A stretch of DNA of 64,000 nucleotides from Rhodococcus erythropolis NBRC 15567 (GTDB taxonomy: Bacteria > Actinomycetota > Actinomycetes > Mycobacteriales > Mycobacteriaceae): NCBI RefSeq assembly GCF_001552595.1, contig NZ_BCRM01000022.1, positions 62,001-126,000 of the forward strand. Direction: 5' to 3'. Numbering within the stretch: position 1 is the stretch's first letter; each line of letters begins with the position of its first letter. The translations under genes and the position numbers were made by a program. Positions 4,728 through 19,043 of this stretch are shown here, piece after piece. The notes beneath the pieces were generated by a model. The model did not search any database and was not told the DNA's origin. It saw only the letters and a list, made by a program, of their open reading frames with translations.

Positions 4728-4790
4728 ACGGTCATCTCGGCTTACGCGTTGACACGGTGCGGGCAGTAGTGCAAAAGTTCGCATGTAAAC

Positions 4791-4904
4791 GCGATGGTCC
4801 GACAGGAATCCGGTGAAAGCCCGGAGCGGTCGCGCCACTGTAATTCGAGGTGAAGTGCCTTTTTCGGCACGACTATTTCGACAGCCAGACACTTCGGCCA
4901 TCGC
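4791..4904 (+). promoter_or_regulatory. Cobalamin (adenosylcobalamin) riboswitch
   Basis: The core has the family signature: GGAATCCGGTGAAAGCC at about 4804-4820, GGTCGCGCCACTGTAA at about 4828-4843, a variable hairpin AAGTGCC...GGCAC, and a B12-box region GCCAGACAC near 4884. The closing stem pairs GCGATGG (4791-4797) with CCATCGC (4898-4904). It ends about 26 bases before the AGGAGG of cbtB, so it probably hides that ribosome binding site when cobalamin is bound. A TTGACA at 4749-4754 is a possible -35 box. Confidence 0.9.
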
Positions 4905-4941
4905 ATGGACCTAGGGGACGCGAAAATCCCAGGAGGCTTCG

Positions 4942-5136
4942 ATGGCTCTCGCCTATTCTCCCGATACGTCGATCGATTCGACTCGTCTTGCTTTCCTCGC
5001 CGCTGCAGTAGTTCTGTTCGCGATGCTCGCTCTCTACCTGGTCGGATTCGACCAGGGCGCTATCTCTCGCACCGGCATGTACATGCATGAATTGATGCAC
5101 GACGGTCGACACTTGATGGGCCTGCCGTGCCACTAG
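4942..5136 (+). CDS. cbtB: CbtB, small subunit of a predicted cobalt transporter
   Basis: The 64-residue protein has one membrane helix (about residues 20-41) and a histidine-rich C-terminus with MHELMHDGRH and a final PCH. This is the usual CbtB layout, in which the C-terminal histidines are thought to bind cobalt. AGGAGG lies five bases before the ATG. It is the first gene after the cobalamin riboswitch and overlaps cbtA by 10 bases, so uptake should rise when cobalamin is scarce. Confidence 0.92.
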   Translation: MALAYSPDTSIDSTRLAFLAAAVVLFAMLALYLVGFDQGAISRTGMYMHELMHDGRHLMGLPCH

Positions 5137-5903
5137 TCGACAATTTCACGAAGCTTCTCATTCGTGGTTTGTTGGCTGGTTTGATCGCAGGCATCCTTGC
5201 CGGCGGAGTTGCATTCGTGCTGGGTGAACCGCACGTCAATGCCGCCATTGCGATCGAAGAAGCCAACAGCGCCACCGGTGAGGTTGCCGGCGAAGCCGCT
5301 GGGCATTCGCACGGTGACGAAGAAGAACCACTGGTGAGCCGCGACGGGCAGCGCGCCGGGCTGTTCCTGGCCACAGCGCTGGCCGGACTGGCACTCGGGG
5401 CAATCTTCTCGGTCGTTGCCAATTACGCTCGACGACTCACCGGAATGTCCGGGCCGTTGTTGGCGATCACCATCGCCGTCGGTGGTTGGCTGGCCATCGA
5501 GGCCGTGCCCTTCTTCAAGTACCCGGCCAATCCGCCGGCCGTCGGAGATCCCGACACCATCAACCAGCGCACACTGCTGTGGCTGGCCGCCGTGATTCTC
5601 GGGCTACTGTCCGTCACCGCGGCAGCAGCGGCGGCAAAGGCAGTTTCCGGGCACGAGTTCCTCAGCGTGCGCATCGCTGCTCCGGTGGCTGCGTTCCTGG
5701 TGATCGCCACGATCGGTTACGTCTCGCTTCCCGGCATCAACGAGGTGGGCGAGGACTTCCCGGCAACTCTGCTGTGGGAGTTCCGACTTTCCTCGCTCGC
5801 TACGCAGGCGACGCTCTGGCTCGTGCTCGGGTTGGCATTCGCCTTCCTCACCGAGCGCGCGACCAAGAACACCGAAGTAGCAAAAAAGTACGCCCTTCGC
5901 TGA
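5127..5903 (+). CDS. cbtA: CbtA, membrane subunit of a predicted cobalt transporter
   Basis: The 258-residue protein has about six membrane helices and a histidine-containing loop HSHGDEEE after the first helix, as usual for CbtA. The GTG start lies inside the end of cbtB, which suggests translational coupling. Together with cbtB it is predicted to bring cobalt in for B12 synthesis; this role is known from comparative genomics of riboswitch regulons rather than from this sequence. Transcription would end in the palindrome at 5906-5955. Confidence 0.9.
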   Translation: MPLVDNFTKLLIRGLLAGLIAGILAGGVAFVLGEPHVNAAIAIEEANSATGEVAGEAAGHSHGDEEEPLVSRDGQRAGLFLATALAGLALGAIFSVVANYARRLTGMSGPLLAITIAVGGWLAIEAVPFFKYPANPPAVGDPDTINQRTLLWLAAVILGLLSVTAAAAAAKAVSGHEFLSVRIAAPVAAFLVIATIGYVSLPGINEVGEDFPATLLWEFRLSSLATQATLWLVLGLAFAFLTERATKNTEVAKKYALR

Positions 5904-5962: not shown

Positions 5963-7798
5963 TCAGCTCAGGTGATGCACTTCCTGCAGTCCGTACACCG
6001 GCGTCGGGATGCCCTCGTAGCGCGCCTTCAACTGCAACGCCAAGTACAGCGAGTAGTGGCGCGACTGGTGCAGATTGCCTCCGTGGAACCACAGCGCTTC
6101 CTGCTGCGTCGGCTTCCACATGTTGCGCTGCTCGCCTTCCCACGGTCCCGGATCCTTGGTGGTATTCGAGCCCAGGCCCCACACCTTGCCGACCTTGTCG
6201 GCGGTGTCCTGACCGATCAGATCCGCCACCCAGCCGTTCATCGAGCCGTAGCCGGTCGCGTAGACCACCACGTCGGCAGGCAATTCCGTACCGTCTTCGA
6301 GGATCACGCTGTTCTCGGTCAGCTCACGAATGTTGCCGTGCGCGAGCTTGATGTCTCCATTGGCAACCAGTTCGGCCGCGCCGACGTCGATGTAGTACCC
6401 CGAACCGCGGCGTAGGTACTTCATGAACAGACCTGAACCGTCGTCGCCCCAGTCGTGCTCGAAGCCCGCCTTCTCGAGGCGATCGTAGAAATCCTTGTCG
6501 CGCTCACGGATTGCGTCGTACACCGGGATCTGGAACTCGTGCATGATCCGGTACGGCAGCGAACCGAACGTGAGGTCCGCCTTGTGCGTCGTCATGCCTG
6601 CGGCCAGTGCACGCTCCGAGTACAGATCGCCCAAGCCCAAATCCATCAGCGAATCCGACTTCACGATGTGCGTCGAGCTGCGCTGCACCATCGTGACGTC
6701 GATGCCGTTCTCCCACAGTGCACCGCAGATGTCGTGCGAGGAGTTATTGGCCCCGATCACGACGACCTTCTTGCCCACGTACTGATCCGGGCCGGGGTGC
6801 TTGCTCGAGTGGTGCTGATCGCCGAGGAACTTGTCCTGCCCGGGGAACGTCGGAATGTTGGCCTTGCCGGACATACCCGTCGCCATCACCAACTGCTTGG
6901 GACGCAACGTCAGCTTCTCGCCGTTGCGGTTGACCTCGACGGTCCATTCCTGGGTCTTCTCGTCGAACGACGCGGAGGTGCAGGTCGTGGAACTCCAGTA
7001 CGGAACCTCCATGACCTTGGTGTACATCTCGAGCCAGTCGCCGATCTTGTCCTTGGGCGCGAACACCGGCCAGTTGTCGGGGAACGGCATGTATGGCAGG
7101 TGGTCGTACCAAACCGGATCGTGCAGGCACAGGGACTTGTAGCGTCCGCGCCACTGGTCGCCCGGCCGCTCGTGGCTGTCGATCACGATGGCCGGAACTC
7201 CGAGTTGGCGCATCCGGGCACCGAGGGCGATGCCTCCCTGGCCGCCGCCGACGATCACGACGTAAGGCTGTGTGGTGTAACCCAGTTCGCGATCCTCGAT
7301 CTCCTTCTGCTCGGCCCACGTGATGCGGTTCGGGTCCGCTCCGTGCTTCGCTCCACGAGGCCGGCGAGTGCCCTTACCTTCTTCGTGTCCCTTCAATTCC
7401 TGCAACGACGTCAGCAGGGTCCAACCTTCATCTCCTTTCAAACGAAGGTGCCCGTGCGCGCGACCGGTTGCAGTCTCGAATTCGATCCAGGCCGACGTGA
7501 CGCCGTCGGCTTCGTCGGGTGTCTCGGTGGTCCGGAATCCCGAAGGATCGGTGTCGTCGAGACGCTCGGAGAGCATGTCGGCAATCTGCTCGCGACCTTC
7601 GACGGTCTTGATGTTCCAGGTGAACGACACCAAGTCTCGCCAGAAGCTGTCGAGTGCAAATTTGCCTGCCACACGCTCGATGTCACGAGCCGCGAGGGCC
7701 GACTCGAAATCCGCCAGCCAGGCGTCGACGCGTTCCTGAGGTGTCACCGCCGTCAACTTCACCTCGGGGGTGACTGCGGAATCGATGGTTTGCGTCAT
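5963..7798 (-). CDS. Flavin-containing monooxygenase with an N-terminal NTF2-like domain
   Basis: The ATG at 7798 follows AAGGAG and gives 611 residues. Residues 20-140 look like an NTF2/SnoaL-type domain. An FAD-binding Rossmann motif VVIVGGGQGG is at about 179-188, and a second, degenerate dinucleotide motif VVIGANNSSHD at about 345-355. Between them is FLGDQHHSSKHP (324-335), which resembles the Baeyer-Villiger fingerprint FxGxxxHxxxW(P/D) but has His where Trp is usual. An ATGYG motif is near the C-terminus. The enzyme should use NADPH and oxygen on a ketone, amine or other small organic substrate. The nearby SDR and GAF regulator suggest an alcohol/ketone pathway. An operator-like repeat is 62 bases upstream. 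Confidence 0.87.
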   Translation of the reverse strand: MTQTIDSAVTPEVKLTAVTPQERVDAWLADFESALAARDIERVAGKFALDSFWRDLVSFTWNIKTVEGREQIADMLSERLDDTDPSGFRTTETPDEADGVTSAWIEFETATGRAHGHLRLKGDEGWTLLTSLQELKGHEEGKGTRRPRGAKHGADPNRITWAEQKEIEDRELGYTTQPYVVIVGGGQGGIALGARMRQLGVPAIVIDSHERPGDQWRGRYKSLCLHDPVWYDHLPYMPFPDNWPVFAPKDKIGDWLEMYTKVMEVPYWSSTTCTSASFDEKTQEWTVEVNRNGEKLTLRPKQLVMATGMSGKANIPTFPGQDKFLGDQHHSSKHPGPDQYVGKKVVVIGANNSSHDICGALWENGIDVTMVQRSSTHIVKSDSLMDLGLGDLYSERALAAGMTTHKADLTFGSLPYRIMHEFQIPVYDAIRERDKDFYDRLEKAGFEHDWGDDGSGLFMKYLRRGSGYYIDVGAAELVANGDIKLAHGNIRELTENSVILEDGTELPADVVVYATGYGSMNGWVADLIGQDTADKVGKVWGLGSNTTKDPGPWEGEQRNMWKPTQQEALWFHGGNLHQSRHYSLYLALQLKARYEGIPTPVYGLQEVHHLS

Positions 7799-7860
7799 CA
7801 CTTCTCCTTGTTTGTGAATGTGACACACAGCACATCCCATAAGTGGCCCCGGTCACAAGC

Positions 7861-7876
7861 GTTGCAGTCTGTTGCA
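7861..7876 (-). promoter_or_regulatory. TGCAAC-N4-TGCAAC site before the monooxygenase
   Basis: On the minus strand the site reads TGCAACAGACTGCAAC, a perfect 10-base-period direct repeat, 62 bases before the monooxygenase start. The same repeat in the same orientation precedes the SDR gene and, with one change, the membrane gene. It is probably bound by the GAF-domain regulator encoded at 10089-11447. Confidence 0.6.
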
Positions 7877-7906
7877 ATCAGCGGGCGCGGTGCCGCCGCC
7901 CGATAC

Positions 7907-7936
7907 CGGTTACCCGCACCGATGTGCGGGCAACCG
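7907..7936 (-). terminator. Hairpin after the membrane protein gene
   Basis: CGGTTACCCGCAC and GTGCGGGCAACCG pair at 12 of 13 positions around CGAT. It starts two bases after the stop of the membrane gene and lies before the monooxygenase promoter region, so the two minus-strand genes are likely separate units. Confidence 0.6.
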
Positions 7937-7938
7937 AC

Positions 7939-9084
7939 TCACCCCTCAGTAGGCTTGAATTTGCCGAGTCCCAGCGACTGAAATCCCACGACGTAGAACA
8001 GCGTCCACAACACGGCCCAGTCCACGAAACCCAGTGCATTGCCGTGTAATCCGTCGACAACTGCCGGCTCGTGAAGAATGTGCTCTGCCGCAAAGCGGTA
8101 ATAGAACAAGAATGTGACCACCGCGAGCGCAAACGTGAGCAGCGCGCGGATCGCCAGGTTGACCCCGTCCGCAAAGCCCGTGGGCTTGTTACCGAAGGCG
8201 TTGGCCCAGAAGATCATCCAGAAGGCCCAGCACACACCGAGCTGCGCCGGGAACTGATGGACCACACCACCCAACTCGGCAACGGCATCGCTTCCCACCA
8301 ACACCTTCACGACCGGAAGTGCCACGAAGTACAAGCCGGTTCCGACGGCGAAGTTACCGATCGTGGCTGCGAGCGCCGTCTTACCGCCGCCGCCGAACAG
8401 TCGCCACGGCCAGTTGTCGAGCGTCTGGCCAGTCAGGATCACGACCACCACGACGCAGTAGAACCATCCGAGTGCGGTGTCGACGGTCATCAACGGATCC
8501 GTGGCAGACAGCGACACGGACGGCAGACCGAACACGAAGTACAGCGCCAGCGTCGGGACGGCGACAAACGCGATCTCACACAAACCCACCAACGGCTGCT
8601 TCATCCCGAGGGAAGTCCACGGCCAATGCTGCCAGTTCAGGACCACCATCACCCAGGTCCCGAAGCCGAAGAGCACGAACAGCGCACCCGCGAAATATCC
8701 GAGGCCGCCCTCACGATCGGCCGCGAAATCCGGGTACAAACTCCCCAAGCCGTTTGCCAGGAGCCACGTCACCACGACGGCGAAGACCGCGGTCGCGACC
8801 ATGATCGCCAAGCCTTTCGCCGGCTGTGGGAGTCGATCGAAGCCGGCGAACTCGCAATTGAAGCCGATGAACACAACAAAAAGGATTGCCCAGAAAAGCG
8901 CCGCGTTGAACGGCAGAGGATAGAAACTCCAGGGACTGGTGGTCGGATCGGCCAGAAGGTACCAACTCGCCACGGCCAGCACGAGAACGATCACGAGGTT
9001 CGCGATCCCGAACCCGATCCAGCGGCGTGACGGTTGTCGGCTCGGCGTGGCCGGTTCCGTGGGTGTGTCGACTGTAGCGGTCAT
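7939..9084 (-). CDS. Multi-pass membrane protein of unknown family
   Basis: The ATG at 9084 (GGGAGAGGG upstream) gives 381 residues. A polar N-terminus of about 20 residues is followed by some ten hydrophobic helices with many Trp, and Phe-rich segments (for example FPAQLGVCWAFWMIFWANAFGN). I do not recognise a transporter signature. Its site TGCAACCCTCGGCAAC, 82 bases upstream, mirrors the site before the SDR gene, so it is probably co-regulated with the SDR and monooxygenase. It may move or shelter the substrate of those enzymes; this is inference. Confidence 0.75.
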   Translation of the reverse strand: MTATVDTPTEPATPSRQPSRRWIGFGIANLVIVLVLAVASWYLLADPTTSPWSFYPLPFNAALFWAILFVVFIGFNCEFAGFDRLPQPAKGLAIMVATAVFAVVVTWLLANGLGSLYPDFAADREGGLGYFAGALFVLFGFGTWVMVVLNWQHWPWTSLGMKQPLVGLCEIAFVAVPTLALYFVFGLPSVSLSATDPLMTVDTALGWFYCVVVVVILTGQTLDNWPWRLFGGGGKTALAATIGNFAVGTGLYFVALPVVKVLVGSDAVAELGGVVHQFPAQLGVCWAFWMIFWANAFGNKPTGFADGVNLAIRALLTFALAVVTFLFYYRFAAEHILHEPAVVDGLHGNALGFVDWAVLWTLFYVVGFQSLGLGKFKPTEG

Positions 9085-9166
9085 GTGCCCTCTCCCAGAT
9101 TGTCTCGCAAGATGATTCGCGAAGTGGTGGCGCAACTATGGAACCGTCGCGCGGGGTACCGGGAGG

Positions 9167-9182
9167 GTTGCCGAGGGTTGCA
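9167..9182 (-). promoter_or_regulatory. TGCAAC-N4-GGCAAC site before the membrane gene
   Basis: The minus strand reads TGCAACCCTCGGCAAC, one mismatch from the sites before the monooxygenase and SDR. It is 82 bases from the membrane gene start, the same distance as the plus-strand site is from the SDR start. Confidence 0.5.
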
Positions 9183-9205
9183 ACTGCTGTCCGATTTTCC
9201 GGAAT

Positions 9206-9221
9206 TGCAACACGGTGCAAC
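9206..9221 (+). promoter_or_regulatory. TGCAAC-N4-TGCAAC site before the SDR gene
   Basis: The plus strand reads TGCAACACGGTGCAAC, 82 bases before the ATG of the SDR gene. It lies back to back with the site at 9167-9182 in the divergent promoter region. Confidence 0.6.
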
Positions 9222-9303
9222 CCTTCCGCATTGTGGTCGCCGTCACATACAAATCACTCACCGGTTCACAACCGACTGGTTCACTGCTTACGAGGAGATC
9301 TGC

Positions 9304-10083
9304 ATGAGCATCACGGGCAAGGTAGTACTGGTCACCGGCGCCGGCCAAGGAATCGGACGCGGAATCGCTCTCCGCCTCGCCCACGACGGCGCCGACATCG
9401 CGTTGGTCGACCTCGACCAGACCAAGCTGGATGCGGTTGCCGACGAGATCAGACAGATCGGTCGTCGTGCGACGACGTTTATCTCCGATGTCAGCGATCG
9501 CGCGCAGGTTCACGCCGCAGTCGAACACGCGCACAGTGAGTTGAGCGGATTCGACGTCATCGTCAACAACGCGGGAATCGCTCTCGTCGGCCCGATCTCC
9601 GATGCGACGCCGGAAGAGGTCTCCAAGATCTGGAGCGTCAACGTCGACGGTGTCCTGTGGGGAATTCAAGCCGCAGCGGCAAAGTTCCAGGCGCTCGGTC
9701 AGCGCGGAAAGATCATCAACGCGTCGTCCATCGCCGGTCATGACGGGTTCGCCATGTTAGGTGTTTACAGCGCAACAAAATTCGCGGTCAGGGCCCTCAC
9801 TCAGGCTGCGGCCAAGGAATACGCGTCCGACGGAATCACCGTCAACGCGTACTGCCCCGGCGTCGTGGGCACCGACATGTGGGTGACGATCGACAAGAGG
9901 TTCGCCGAGTTGACCGGTGCGCCAGAGGGCGCCACCTACGAGAAGTTCGTCGGCGGAATTGCGCTGGGTCGAGCTGAAACCCCCGACGACGTAGCCGGTT
10001 TCGTCTCTTACCTCGCTGGGCCCGATTCCGACTACATGACCGGGCAGGCCGGTCTCATCGACGGCGGTCTCGTCTACCGCTGA
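9304..10083 (+). CDS. Short-chain dehydrogenase, acetoin reductase/2,3-butanediol dehydrogenase type
   Basis: The 259-residue SDR has TGAGQGIGRG at 11-20 for NAD(H) binding, NNAG in the middle, and the catalytic Ser...YSATK pair (Tyr about 152, Lys about 156). The segment GKIINASSIAGHDGFAMLGVYSATKFAVR and the C-terminal DYMTGQAGLIDGGLVYR are typical of meso-2,3-butanediol dehydrogenase/diacetyl reductase (BudC) proteins. GAGGAG precedes the ATG. It likely interconverts a secondary alcohol and a ketone. It is followed after five bases by the GAF regulator, so both are on one transcript. Confidence 0.85.
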   Translation: MSITGKVVLVTGAGQGIGRGIALRLAHDGADIALVDLDQTKLDAVADEIRQIGRRATTFISDVSDRAQVHAAVEHAHSELSGFDVIVNNAGIALVGPISDATPEEVSKIWSVNVDGVLWGIQAAAAKFQALGQRGKIINASSIAGHDGFAMLGVYSATKFAVRALTQAAAKEYASDGITVNAYCPGVVGTDMWVTIDKRFAELTGAPEGATYEKFVGGIALGRAETPDDVAGFVSYLAGPDSDYMTGQAGLIDGGLVYR

Positions 10084-10088
10084 CCGAG

Positions 10089-11447
10089 GTGTCTTCACTG
10101 AAAGCGGCGTCTTCGCCGAAAGCGGCGTCTTCGCCGAAAGCGGTGTCTTCACTGAAAAAGCGGTTGCCAGAGCCTGCGATGCCGCCCGGCGAGGATCCTC
10201 GCGACTACGCGAGGACCCTCGCCGCGGTGTACGACGCGACGATGGCCGGAGACCGCGCACCGGCCCGCCCAAGGGACGTGGTGCGCCAATCGTGGCAGCG
10301 CCTGCGCGAACTCGGTATCGATCCCGAGCACAGCCGGGTCGAACCGTCGATGGACGTCGCCGAACTCGATCTCCGTCGTCGTGAGTCCGGACTGTACGAC
10401 GTACTCGACGACGTGACACGCGGACTCGAATCGGTCACCGCGAGCGGTGAGAACATCATGGTCGTCGCAGATCTTCGCGGAACTGTACTGTGGCGCAGCG
10501 GTTCCCATCGCGTACTGGACCAAGCTGCGCGTCTGGGATTTGTCGAAGGGGCGAACTGGGCGGAGGACAGCGTCGGCACCAATGCCATCGGAACGGCATT
10601 GGTGTCACGACAGGCGGTTCAGATCTTCTCGGCGGAACACTATGCGCGCAGCCATCATCCGTGGACGTGTGCGGGGGCGCCCATCCGCGATCCGCGGGAC
10701 GACCGTGTCATCGGCGTCGTCGACATCAGTGGTCCTGCCAAGACCGTCCATCCCACGACGCTCGCTCTGGTCGACGCCGTCGCACGCCTCGCTCAATCAC
10801 ACCTGCGCGACAAGCATCGGGACAATCTCGATCAACTACGTTCTGTTGCAGGGCCGATGCTTGCACGAAGCGGATCACCCGCATTGGTGATCGACACCCA
10901 CGGATGGGTCGCAGCGGTCGACGCGTTACCTCATCGCTCGCGCGTGCTGCTCCCCGCAGCTTTGGCTCCCGGCAGGACATGGTTCCCGGCCCTGGGCCTG
11001 TGCGAACTGGATCCGCTTCCCGGCGGGTGGCTGGTTAGACCGATCACCACCGGCGAGAGAATCAGCGCGCCCACGGTGCATATTGATCTGCGCGATTCCG
11101 AGAACATGTCGGTGACAGTCACGTCGGGTTTCGGCGAATGGGCATACGCCCCCACCCAACGACATGCGGAGATTCTGTTCCTCCTCGGATCCGAGAGACG
11201 GGGACTGACTGCATCGCGGTTGGCGCAAGATCTGTTCGGCGACCCGGCCCGCACGGTGACCGCGCGGGCCGAGATGTCGCGTCTGCGAAAGAACCTCGCC
11301 GGAGTTGTTGCAGCGCAGCCGTACCGGTTCGTCGATGCAGCGCACGTGACCTTGTCCTGCCCTGTGAACGGCGCACATCTGTTGCCGTTTTCGAACGCCC
11401 CGGCTGTGCGTGCCGCTCGCCTTTCTCAGGCCGGTTCGGAGGCCTGA
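10089..11447 (+). CDS. GAF-domain transcriptional regulator (AcoR-like, without AAA+ domain)
   Basis: The protein is up to 452 residues. The core begins near EDPRDYARTLAAVYDATM, continues with the acetoin-regulator-like N-terminal block (VRQSWQRLRELGIDPEHS), then a GAF domain with WAEDSVGTNAIGTAL and HPWTCAGAPIRDP, and ends in a DNA-binding domain (RHAEILFLLGSERRGLTASRLAQDLF...RAEMSRLRKNL). There is no sigma-54 AAA+ module. Such regulators in actinobacteria activate alcohol, ketone or acetoin catabolism. GTG 10089 has a poor ribosome site; ATG 10179 is an alternative that would drop the repetitive leader. It is the likely reader of the TGCAAC-N4-TGCAAC sites. Confidence 0.83.
   Translation: MSSLKAASSPKAASSPKAVSSLKKRLPEPAMPPGEDPRDYARTLAAVYDATMAGDRAPARPRDVVRQSWQRLRELGIDPEHSRVEPSMDVAELDLRRRESGLYDVLDDVTRGLESVTASGENIMVVADLRGTVLWRSGSHRVLDQAARLGFVEGANWAEDSVGTNAIGTALVSRQAVQIFSAEHYARSHHPWTCAGAPIRDPRDDRVIGVVDISGPAKTVHPTTLALVDAVARLAQSHLRDKHRDNLDQLRSVAGPMLARSGSPALVIDTHGWVAAVDALPHRSRVLLPAALAPGRTWFPALGLCELDPLPGGWLVRPITTGERISAPTVHIDLRDSENMSVTVTSGFGEWAYAPTQRHAEILFLLGSERRGLTASRLAQDLFGDPARTVTARAEMSRLRKNLAGVVAAQPYRFVDAAHVTLSCPVNGAHLLPFSNAPAVRAARLSQAGSEA
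10092..10163 (+). repeat. Four 18-bp tandem repeats in the regulator leader
   Basis: Four units of 18 bases follow one another; the two middle ones read TCTTCGCCGAAAGCGGCG or differ at one base, and the outer ones have ACT in place of GCC. Each unit holds a small palindrome TTC-N3-GAA. If translated they give SS(L/P)KA(A/V) repeats, unlike the rest of the protein, so they may be either a low-complexity N-terminus or untranslated regulatory sequence before ATG 10179. Confidence 0.8.
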
Positions 11448-12085
11448 GTGAGCAACTGCAGAAACACCTCTTCGGGCTGAGCGCCGGACACGGCAACCGC
11501 ACGGTTGGCGACAAAGAACGGAACGCCGCTGACCTGCAGTTGGCGGGCCATGGACAGATCTTCGCGGACAGCCTCCGCTGCGGCATCGGAGCCCAGTTGC
11601 TCGCGCACGACATCGGCGTCGAGGCCGACGCTCACGGCCAGCTCGACCAGCACCTCACGGTCGTCGATCACCAAGCCGTCGCTGAAGTGCGCTTTGAACA
11701 GCGCTTCGAGGAGTTCGTTCTGCCGCTCACCCGCGAGATGCAGCAACCTGTGCGCATCAAAGGTATTGGCGGCGATCACGGTTTCGAAGTCCAAGGTCAA
11801 CCCGACCTCGGCGGCCGTCGCGCTGACGTGGGCGAACATCTGACGTACCTGATCAGGCGCCATCCCCTTCATTTCGACCAAGGCGTCGAGTTCGGTTCGG
11901 CCCTCTCCCACCGGGGTCTCCGGAGCGAGCTGGTACGAGCGCCAGATGACGTTGACGCGGTCCTTGTTCTCGAAACGATCCAGCGCCGAGAGGAACCTGG
12001 TCTTTCCGATGTAGCACCACGGACAAGCGACGTCCGACCACACTTCGATGGTCACGTCTTGGTCAATCACGATTTGATCAGTCAC
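11426..12085 (-). CDS. DsbA-family oxidoreductase, FrnE-like
   Basis: The 219-residue protein has no signal peptide and starts with a beta strand followed by SDVACPWCYIG, the CxxC active site of a thioredoxin fold (Cys about residue 21 and 24). The helical insertion with FDAHRLLHLA and the C-terminal GVPFFVANR (cis-Pro loop) are typical of FrnE/2-hydroxychromene-2-carboxylate isomerase-like DsbA proteins. It probably does thiol-disulfide exchange in the cytosol. It overlaps the 3' end of the convergent GAF regulator by 22 bases. Confidence 0.9.
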   Translation of the reverse strand: MTDQIVIDQDVTIEVWSDVACPWCYIGKTRFLSALDRFENKDRVNVIWRSYQLAPETPVGEGRTELDALVEMKGMAPDQVRQMFAHVSATAAEVGLTLDFETVIAANTFDAHRLLHLAGERQNELLEALFKAHFSDGLVIDDREVLVELAVSVGLDADVVREQLGSDAAAEAVREDLSMARQLQVSGVPFFVANRAVAVSGAQPEEVFLQLLTQASEPA

Positions 12086-12125
12086 CGAAGGTGCAACAAC
12101 GAACAGGGTCGGGATTAGTCCCGAG

Positions 12126-12785
12126 TCACGTCACAAGGCCACACCGGAACGCGATCAACGACGCACTCACGCGGTTGGGCACACCCAGCTTGGCGAACAG
12201 CGAAGAGATATGCGTCTTGACGGTGGTCTCACCGAGGTACAGCCGCTCCGCGATAACGCTGTTGGCCGCGCCTGTCGCCAGGATTGTCAGCACTTCGCGC
12301 TCCCGATCGGTGAGCGAAGCGAGCGGAGTCTGATCGGGCGCTTGCCGACGCGGCGACGAGGCCACGATGGCGCGCAGAGAATCGCAACTGAACAACGAGT
12401 GGTCCGACGCCACTACCCGCACTGCCTGCTGGAACGCCTGCGGAGCTGCGTCCTTGCTCAGGAAACTGTGCGCGCCCGCCTCGACTGCCTGCACAACCAT
12501 GTCGTCGACGTCGAAGGCGGTCATGGCAATGACCTTCGGTGGATTGCTCATGGTCATCAATTCACGCGTGGCCTCCAAGCCACCGACCCGTGCCATTTTC
12601 AGATCCATCAGCACCACGTGGGGACGAAAACGAGTGACCTTGGCTGCGACCTGATCGCCGTCCTCGGCCTCGGCCTCGGCAACCACCACGATGTCCGGCG
12701 CTGCTTCCAGGATGTCCTTCATCCCGCGCCGAACCCACGCGTCGTTGTCGACGATCAAAACTGTGATGCGCGAGTCAGCGTCCAT
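12126..12785 (-). CDS. NarL/LuxR-family response regulator
   Basis: The 219-residue protein has a receiver domain with acidic pocket VDND, phospho-acceptor Asp in VVLMDLKM (about residue 59) and the Lys of SFLSKDA, then a LuxR HTH with LTDREREVLTILATG and GETTVKTHISSLFAKLGV. It is encoded 48 bases after the sensor kinase and should be its partner. Targets are unknown, but the exported protein and membrane gene on the other side of the kinase are obvious candidates. Confidence 0.93.
   Translation of the reverse strand: MDADSRITVLIVDNDAWVRRGMKDILEAAPDIVVVAEAEAEDGDQVAAKVTRFRPHVVLMDLKMARVGGLEATRELMTMSNPPKVIAMTAFDVDDMVVQAVEAGAHSFLSKDAAPQAFQQAVRVVASDHSLFSCDSLRAIVASSPRRQAPDQTPLASLTDREREVLTILATGAANSVIAERLYLGETTVKTHISSLFAKLGVPNRVSASLIAFRCGLVT

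Positions 12786-16939: not shown

Positions 16940-19043
<2,104 letters not shown>

Follow-up and report, generated by a model that had tools for sequence, protein, structure and literature searches.

The gene cluster and its direct repeats

The 64-kb stretch of DNA analysed here (the window) is part of the 6.59-Mb draft genome of Rhodococcus erythropolis NBRC 15567. It harbors a cluster of genes coding for a flavin monooxygenase (FMO), a membrane protein, a short-chain dehydrogenase/reductase (SDR) and a regulator with a GAF domain, together with three copies of a 16-base direct repeat, TGCAAC-N4-TGCAAC, which is the candidate operator considered in this study. The features of the cluster are:

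5963..7798, minus strand: flavin monooxygenase, a type II FMO with N-terminal extension (611 amino acids); JsFMO (PDB 8acs) E 2.5e-288 over residues 27-611; Pfam FMO-like
7819..7834, minus strand: CRP/GlxR-like box TGTGCTGTGTGTCACA, downstream of operator 1
7861..7876, minus strand: operator 1, TGCAACAGACTGCAAC, before the monooxygenase; exact, then the conserved NCT at 7858-7860; kept before monooxygenase orthologues
7939..9084, minus strand: hydrophobic, apparently membrane, protein (381 amino acids); Rhodococcus orthologues carry the site
9167..9182, minus strand: operator 3, TGCAACCCTCGGCAAC, before the membrane gene; one mismatch, then CCT at 9164-9166
9206..9221, plus strand: operator 2, TGCAACACGGTGCAAC, ahead of the SDR and the regulator that follows it; exact, then CCT at 9222-9224; kept before SDR orthologues
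9232..9247, plus strand: CRP/GlxR-like box TGTGGTCGCCGTCACA, downstream of operator 2 and followed by an AT-rich -10-like stretch
9304..10083, plus strand: SDR of the acetoin reductase / 2,3-butanediol dehydrogenase family; TIGR02415, 353 bits (cut-off 304)
10089..11447, plus strand: GAF regulator (452 amino acids) with a winged-helix-like C-terminal domain, the candidate operator binder; PF01590 E 9e-13

The membrane protein had no family match in Pfam or NCBIfam. A preliminary description of this DNA had reported three matching repeats before three transcription units. All three were found at these positions and on these strands, and the distances to the start codons agree with those reported (62, 82 and 82 bases to the starts at 7798, 9304 and 9084); operators 1 and 2 match the pattern exactly, whereas operator 3 has one mismatch.

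The exact pattern was found twice in the window and in none of 100 dinucleotide shuffles. Four exact matches were detected in the genome, compared to none for the reversed pattern and about 0.5 expected from base composition (G+C assumed to be 62.5%). When one mismatch was allowed, 31 genome matches were obtained versus 23 for the reversed control, which is close to chance and uninformative alone; therefore, only one-mismatch sites in conserved positions were trusted. A two-mismatch scan of the window speaks against the observation, as its 8 matches (shuffle mean 3.7) were reached by 4 of 100 shuffles. Operator 3 was accepted because it is conserved among the sites of membrane-gene orthologues: TGCAAC-N5-GCAAC is kept in all 14 labelled sites, and the first base of the second half-site is G, A or C in each of them, never T. 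The window repeats were thus confirmed as real and as part of a conserved operator.

The remaining two exact sites of the genome are located before acs (contig 17) and, on contig 1, between lpd and a second GAF regulator. This lpd belongs to an acetoin-dehydrogenase-like operon, the second GAF regulator adjoins aco-like genes, and a site with one mismatch precedes acoA of the aco operon on the same contig. The cluster had been proposed to form a local regulon; with these additional sites, and with targets scattered in other genomes, the regulon is genome-wide and not local.

Two further arrangements were observed in this genome. In the aco promoter (L038 5779-5814) GCAAC is repeated four times with a 10-base phase, which resembles a tandem of two operators. 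On contig C12 (L040, approximately 17386-17399, minus strand) the 14-mer TGCAACGTTGCAAC precedes exaC and consists of two half-sites with a spacing of 2 instead of 4; this stretch lies next to the gene of a GAF regulator of ExaC type, in which a similar RAEMSRLRK segment occurs, and the 14-mer is also present in genomes G001, G002, G011, G012, G017 and G022.

Conservation of the repeat in related genomes

The scan for the motif near GAF-regulator genes of relatives, which had been suggested earlier, was run on 42 loci, i.e. the surroundings of regulator homologues obtained from a homologue search in named genomes. A spacing of four bases gave 46 exact matches, whereas the 15 other spacings (0-3 and 5-15) gave 3 together. 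In 28 genomes of the genus, 73 exact matches were detected versus 6 for the reversed pattern. Of these 73 sites 43 were inspected, in 40 fetched stretches, and 38 precede a monooxygenase (9), an SDR (4), either kind of zinc alcohol dehydrogenase (ADH; 8), acs (13) or a GAF regulator (4). The other five have no such gene and look chance-like (L125, L126, L128, L129 and L133).

In a scan of 200 genomes of the order, the motif extended by N-C-T gave 36 matches in 26 genomes, belonging to 5 of 16 families, and the control gave none. Two of the matches lie in the window and 34 in fetched loci. For 33 of the latter (35 of 36 with the window) the nearest same-strand homologue downstream is a monooxygenase, SDR, ADH, acoX-like gene or regulator, with weaker matches in L181 (SDR, 48%) and L180 (ADH2, 54%); the sole exception is L160, which has no homologue of a regulon gene downstream. 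The acoX-like gene is found downstream in nine loci and is followed in each by acoA or a regulator.

A chance or structural repeat without function would agree with the one-mismatch counts of the genome and with the five random-looking hits among the inspected genus sites. The excess of exact (73 versus 6) and extended (36 versus 0) matches, the specificity for N4 and the recurrence of the same genes across families rule out this source to the point where it is scarcely credible.

Some loci do not fit a uniform use of the motif and weigh against its general validity. In 12 of the 42 loci, including the Streptomyces violaceusniger group, no N4 site with at most one mismatch was found. The sites of five Streptomyces loci point away from the regulator, and no gene could be identified in the direction they face. 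Further, acs sites carry GGT in the place of NCT, and acs may differ. The open frames before the Streptomyces sites in L068 and L069 had no Pfam match. A search of the regions ahead of nine violaceusniger-group homologues for exact 6-mer repeats with a period of 9-12 gave none common to the group; one GC-rich repeat is shared by two of them. Homologues of this group (L070, L073, L077, L078 and L079) have RAAMSRLR in the C-terminal domain, compared to RAEMSRLR in most others aligned, and with the motif lacking nearby this possibly reflects a changed DNA preference. A separate arrangement was seen in genome G015 (L144 2538-6062), where the operator reads straight into the regulator and the fetched stretch contains no SDR homologue.

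Shape and direction of the operator

In total, 108 sites were labelled and 102 were used; the unused ones are L066, which reads toward the regulator, L067, L068, L069, L080 and L081. Not labelled were L056 (which nearly duplicates the window), L154, the five hits that look like chance, L045 (a one-mismatch site inside an SDR gene) and one-mismatch companions on the opposite strand. Sites were assigned to genes by orientation and gene, and a subsequent homology check upheld 101 of the 102 labels. The wrong one, L060, was called ADH and precedes an SDR; the figures for ADH and SDR given below for boxes and start-codon gaps are off by this one row.

Both half-sites are nearly invariant in the 102 sites, and in the N-C-T behind them C is found in 89 and T in 99. 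The window sites suggested a palindrome (TTGCA-N6-TGCAA), which was rejected as the general form, as only 48 of the 102 sites are preceded by T; the acs sites of erythropolis-like genomes are palindromic too. Since NCT is conserved after the site and the base before it is variable, the operator is an asymmetric direct repeat and not a palindrome. It is also directional: for all 102 assigned sites the homology check identified, further down the same strand, a homologue of a regulon gene, in agreement with the earlier statement that each site reads toward its gene, and diverging target genes, as in the window and in mycobacterial loci, each have their own site.

The 20-base difference between the gaps of 62 and 82 bases had been taken as two helix turns. 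This argument was not upheld, as start-codon gaps vary among orthologues (monooxygenase 38-82 for 30 of the 31 measured sites; SDR 67-83 for the 11 labelled ones; membrane gene 68-83). The distance from the end of the site to a -10-like stretch, approximately 24-26 bases, is steadier by eye. A strict TANNNT at an offset of 24-26 was found in 13 of 13 acs and 7 of 7 ADH2 promoters and in none of the other groups, and therefore only a -10-like stretch is claimed; in all 13 acs promoters it reads TACCCT.

This geometry bears on the sign of regulation. The repeat might be the site of a repressor that is released by an effector: the sign does not follow from position alone, and only a short distance separates the site from the -10-like stretch downstream of it in SDR and ADH promoters. 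However, the sites end approximately 24-26 bases upstream of that stretch and face the promoter, as for an activator. AfsR, whose DNA-binding domain is by a weak match the nearest one of solved structure, activates from direct repeats according to the available part of its description (PMC10936776). Repression is thus considered unlikely.

A CRP/GlxR-like second box

CRP/GlxR proteins recognize a 16-base palindrome with a TGTGA-N6-TCACA-like consensus, and the second box of the window resembles such sites. An exact TGTG-N8-CACA was searched within at most 60 bases downstream of the site in the 102 promoters, L060 being counted as ADH, and was present in 60 of them: FMO 25/31, SDR 9/11, ADH 12/17, acs 13/13 and the L144 regulator 1/1. 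It was found in 0 of 14 membrane-gene promoters (7 with one mismatch), 0 of 7 ADH2, 0 of 4 aco and 0 of 4 promoters of the aco-linked regulator. As a control, 0.06% of shuffled promoters and 0.66% of random 60-mers from the same loci, real sites included, contained the box. Pfam Crp (PF00325) is matched once in the genome. With the box present at many targets, carbon-status control appears likely.

The regulator and its co-occurrence with the motif

The GAF domain of the regulator (PF01590) also matches the GAF region of DhaR (4lrx, E 1.6e-16 with the family profile). It is the only Pfam family at E ≤0.001 in the protein, and neither the AAA+ sigma54-interaction domain nor the Fis helix-turn-helix was matched. 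The C-terminal 80 residues are conserved. Among 32 C-termini of the family, Trans_reg_C (PF00486) is the commonest weak Pfam match (24 at E ≤1, best 0.00097), and the intact aco paralogue reaches 17.3 bits with this model (cut-off 26.2). The best PDB match of the C-terminus is the SARP AfsR (E 0.0085). A BTA domain was not matched in Pfam, and the regulator ends soon after the winged-helix-like region. Against this assignment stand the C-terminus of the window regulator itself, which does not match Trans_reg_C, the best single stretch of the AfsR match (i-Evalue 1.2) and an hhalign comparison to one response regulator (1.6%, not significant); a LuxR-type comparison was weaker still. The assignment as an OmpR/SARP-like winged helix is therefore a weak one.

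The closest named relatives of the window regulator, with 96% identity, are found in Rhodococcus sp. P-2, Rhodococcus sp. IEGM 1409 and R. qingshengii IEGM 1359. The N-terminus varies among relatives, so that the true start may be further downstream. An 18-base tandem repeat of 3.7 copies (window 10091-10157) is located at the start of the gene.

With a cut-off of E ≤1e-60 for a regulator homologue in the 200 genomes of the order, the extended motif was found in 26 of 88 genomes with a homologue and in 0 of 112 without (Fisher p 4.8e-11, genome relatedness being ignored). Of the 26, G043 and G119 are weak cases, the former having a partial homologue only and the latter the chance-like L160 as its sole site. 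When full-length matches at 1e-60 were required, the motif was present in 25 of 57 genomes versus 1 of 143. A cut-off of E 1e-116 (40 genomes; motif in 24/40 versus 2/160) was chosen after the lists had been seen, and the headline figure uses 1e-60. Within the genus (E 1e-40), 20 of 21 genomes with a homologue contain the motif versus 3 of 7 without; of these three, G016 (74% complete) has proper sites and the other two have only chance-like sites. As points against a strict pairing, the extended motif is lacking in 62 of the 88 homologue-bearing genomes and in 16 of 40 among the best-scoring, so that presence of a homologue does not ensure the motif, and in G025 the regulator adjoins the monooxygenase with only a degenerate site.

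RamA, RamB and PrpR recognize TTGCAA-like sites. A different, perhaps global, regulator of C2 carbon of this kind (e.g. RamA-, RamB- or PrpR-like) could bind the repeats, the GAF gene being merely another target; TTGCAA occurs inside the window sites, and acs, a general C2 gene, carries a site. However, the TTGCAA is not conserved, as seen from the preceding base, the extended motif is confined to genomes with a GAF homologue (26/88 versus 0/112), and FMO, SDR and aco sites adjoin GAF genes in several genera. Such a regulator is hence quite improbable.

The GAF regulator behind the SDR had been named the obvious binder. Co-occurrence and shared neighbourhoods make its family the best candidate, but two paralogues could also bind. 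These further close GAF proteins of the genome, on contig C36 and, aco-linked, on C1, share 53% and 46% identity with it and have a similar C-terminal segment. One of them, and not the gene at 10089, may control the window genes, or all may share the sites. In other genera homologues of the C36 type and the FMO stand opposite each other with the same site between them (L155, L156, L159, L171, L177, L186 and L187). On the other hand, the aco-linked copy (L038, approximately 10951-12250, contig C1) is divided between two reading frames here, being either a pseudogene or an assembly error, and is whole in L141, L151 and L152; and the window copy is positioned directly behind the SDR, a position kept in close orthologues. 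Control by a paralogue is a serious possibility, though not the one we favor over the window regulator.

The enzymes encoded downstream of the sites

The SDR scores above the cut-off of TIGR02415 for acetoin reductase (353.2 bits, cut-off 304.35) and below that of NF006394 for (S)-acetoin-forming diacetyl reductase (312.6 bits, cut-off 381); among proteins of known structure, acetoin reductases and butanediol dehydrogenases are close to it. For both types of zinc ADH the best solved relative is the (R,R)-butanediol dehydrogenase 6ie0 (E 6.5e-72 and 5.3e-89). The acs product is an acetate-CoA ligase (TIGR02188). ExaC, an acetaldehyde dehydrogenase (NF050026 for the protein of L060), is encoded behind the regulator in the mycobacterial loci L060 and L063; in L059 only its start is present, and it is not found in L061 and L062. 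The acoX-like protein contains an NAD-kinase domain, which scores above the Pfam cut-off in L161 and just below it in L173; acoX genes encode proteins of this kind. Against the proposed pathway, no NCBIfam model above its cut-off fits the zinc ADHs, and none of the aco gene products reaches an acetoin-specific model, the E1-alpha and E1-beta subunits matching pyruvate-dehydrogenase models (alpha below, beta above cut-off). From the context, acetoin would be the substrate of the aco products.

The monooxygenase of the window aligns with JsFMO over residues 27-611, in keeping with the N-terminal extension of approximately 160 residues and the FMO core of that class. Type II FMOs with such an extension perform Baeyer-Villiger oxidations, as stated in the available text of PMC10028610. 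The motif FxGxxxHxxx[YF][KR], in the wording given there, is not matched by the window protein, which reads FLGDQHHSSKH with H for Y/F; 8acs likewise has H at the aligned place. The window FMO is predicted to be Baeyer-Villiger-capable. A link between mammalian FMO5 and butanediol was considered and not used as evidence, since acetoin is not shown as a substrate in the accessible part of PMC9393927.

Apart from the cluster, the window contains a cobalamin riboswitch (4778-4916, 34.6 bits, gathering 31.5) upstream of the CbtA cobalt-transporter gene (5127-5903).

A model of regulation

Taken together, the comparisons suggest that TGCAAC-N4-TGCAAC-N-C-T is probably the operator of an actinobacterial regulator family controlling 2,3-butanediol, acetoin and C2 metabolism, with an AcoR/DhaR-type GAF sensor region joined to a C-terminal, putatively OmpR/SARP-like winged helix. 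From the site, its spacing, direction and conservation, its target genes and its co-occurrence with the regulator we infer binding, effector, activation and FMO reaction as follows. The GAF region would sense acetoin or a related C4/C2 metabolite. Each TGCAAC would probably be occupied by one of two subunits in head-to-tail orientation, at a distance of ten bases or one helical turn. Bound upstream and directed toward the promoter, the pair would recruit RNA polymerase once the metabolite is sensed. The butanediol dehydrogenases (SDR and zinc ADH) would produce acetoin, which would be passed to the acetoin-dehydrogenase-like complex (acoA-B-C-lpd, with the acoX-like gene in some genera). As an alternative branch, Baeyer-Villiger oxidation of acetoin by the type II FMO may split it into acetate and acetaldehyde, and the acetaldehyde dehydrogenase ExaC and acetyl-CoA synthetase would complete the route to acetyl-CoA. 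CRP/GlxR would add carbon-status control.

More tentatively, actinobacteria may have re-engineered the AcoR system, with a GAF domain and winged helix acting on a 10-base-phased repeat, and with an oxygen-dependent FMO pathway for acetoin that parallels acetoin dehydrogenase and feeds acetyl-CoA synthetase. The model supplies an operator, a regulator family and a gene set for the use of 2,3-butanediol and acetoin across several actinobacterial families, and suggests a partner of the AcoR-type GAF sensor when the sigma54 module is absent. Further, it proposes a natural role for type II FMOs, for which the available text of PMC10028610 names no natural substrates.

Comparison with known systems

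No operator of the form TGCAAC-N4-TGCAAC was found described in open-access papers, among the matches listed, which is in line with the earlier statement that none was known. The system would be a variant of the AcoR kind of control and not a new principle. As in AcoR/DhaR systems, the regulator has a DhaR-type GAF domain, and it adjoins butanediol/acetoin-type genes and, in some genomes, aco genes. AcoR and DhaR act from a distant sigma54 enhancer, whereas the operator described here is located close to the promoter, and the regulator has a winged-helix-like C-terminus instead of matches to AAA+ and Fis.

The resemblance to SARP and OmpR/PhoB regulators, of which AfsR is an example, lies in the tandem direct-repeat operator of about one turn near the promoter and in the weak C-terminal profile match to AfsR and Trans_reg_C. 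AfsR binds tandem direct repeats and activates (PMC10936776). As far as the accessible part of that work goes, the systems differ in period (10 bases here, 11 in AfsR) and in the distance of the repeat end from the -10-like stretch (approximately 25 bases here, 8 in AfsR); the regulator also has no BTA match.

An 'AcoR; CadC1 HTH domain' regulator is located near smoXYB1C1Z of Mycolicibacterium chubuense NBB4 and, in the available portion of PMC8784404, is reported without experimental proof. Likened by this description only, it possibly has the same architecture; it adjoins an alkane monooxygenase, and no operator is named for it in that portion. Finally, the FMO of the window compares with the type II FMOs of Rhodococcus (FMO-E, -F and -G) and with JsFMO, to which it is similar over residues 27-611. 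It differs in the role proposed for it, as the term 'acetoin' is absent from the main text of PMC10028610 as available, whereas a role in acetoin metabolism is suggested here.

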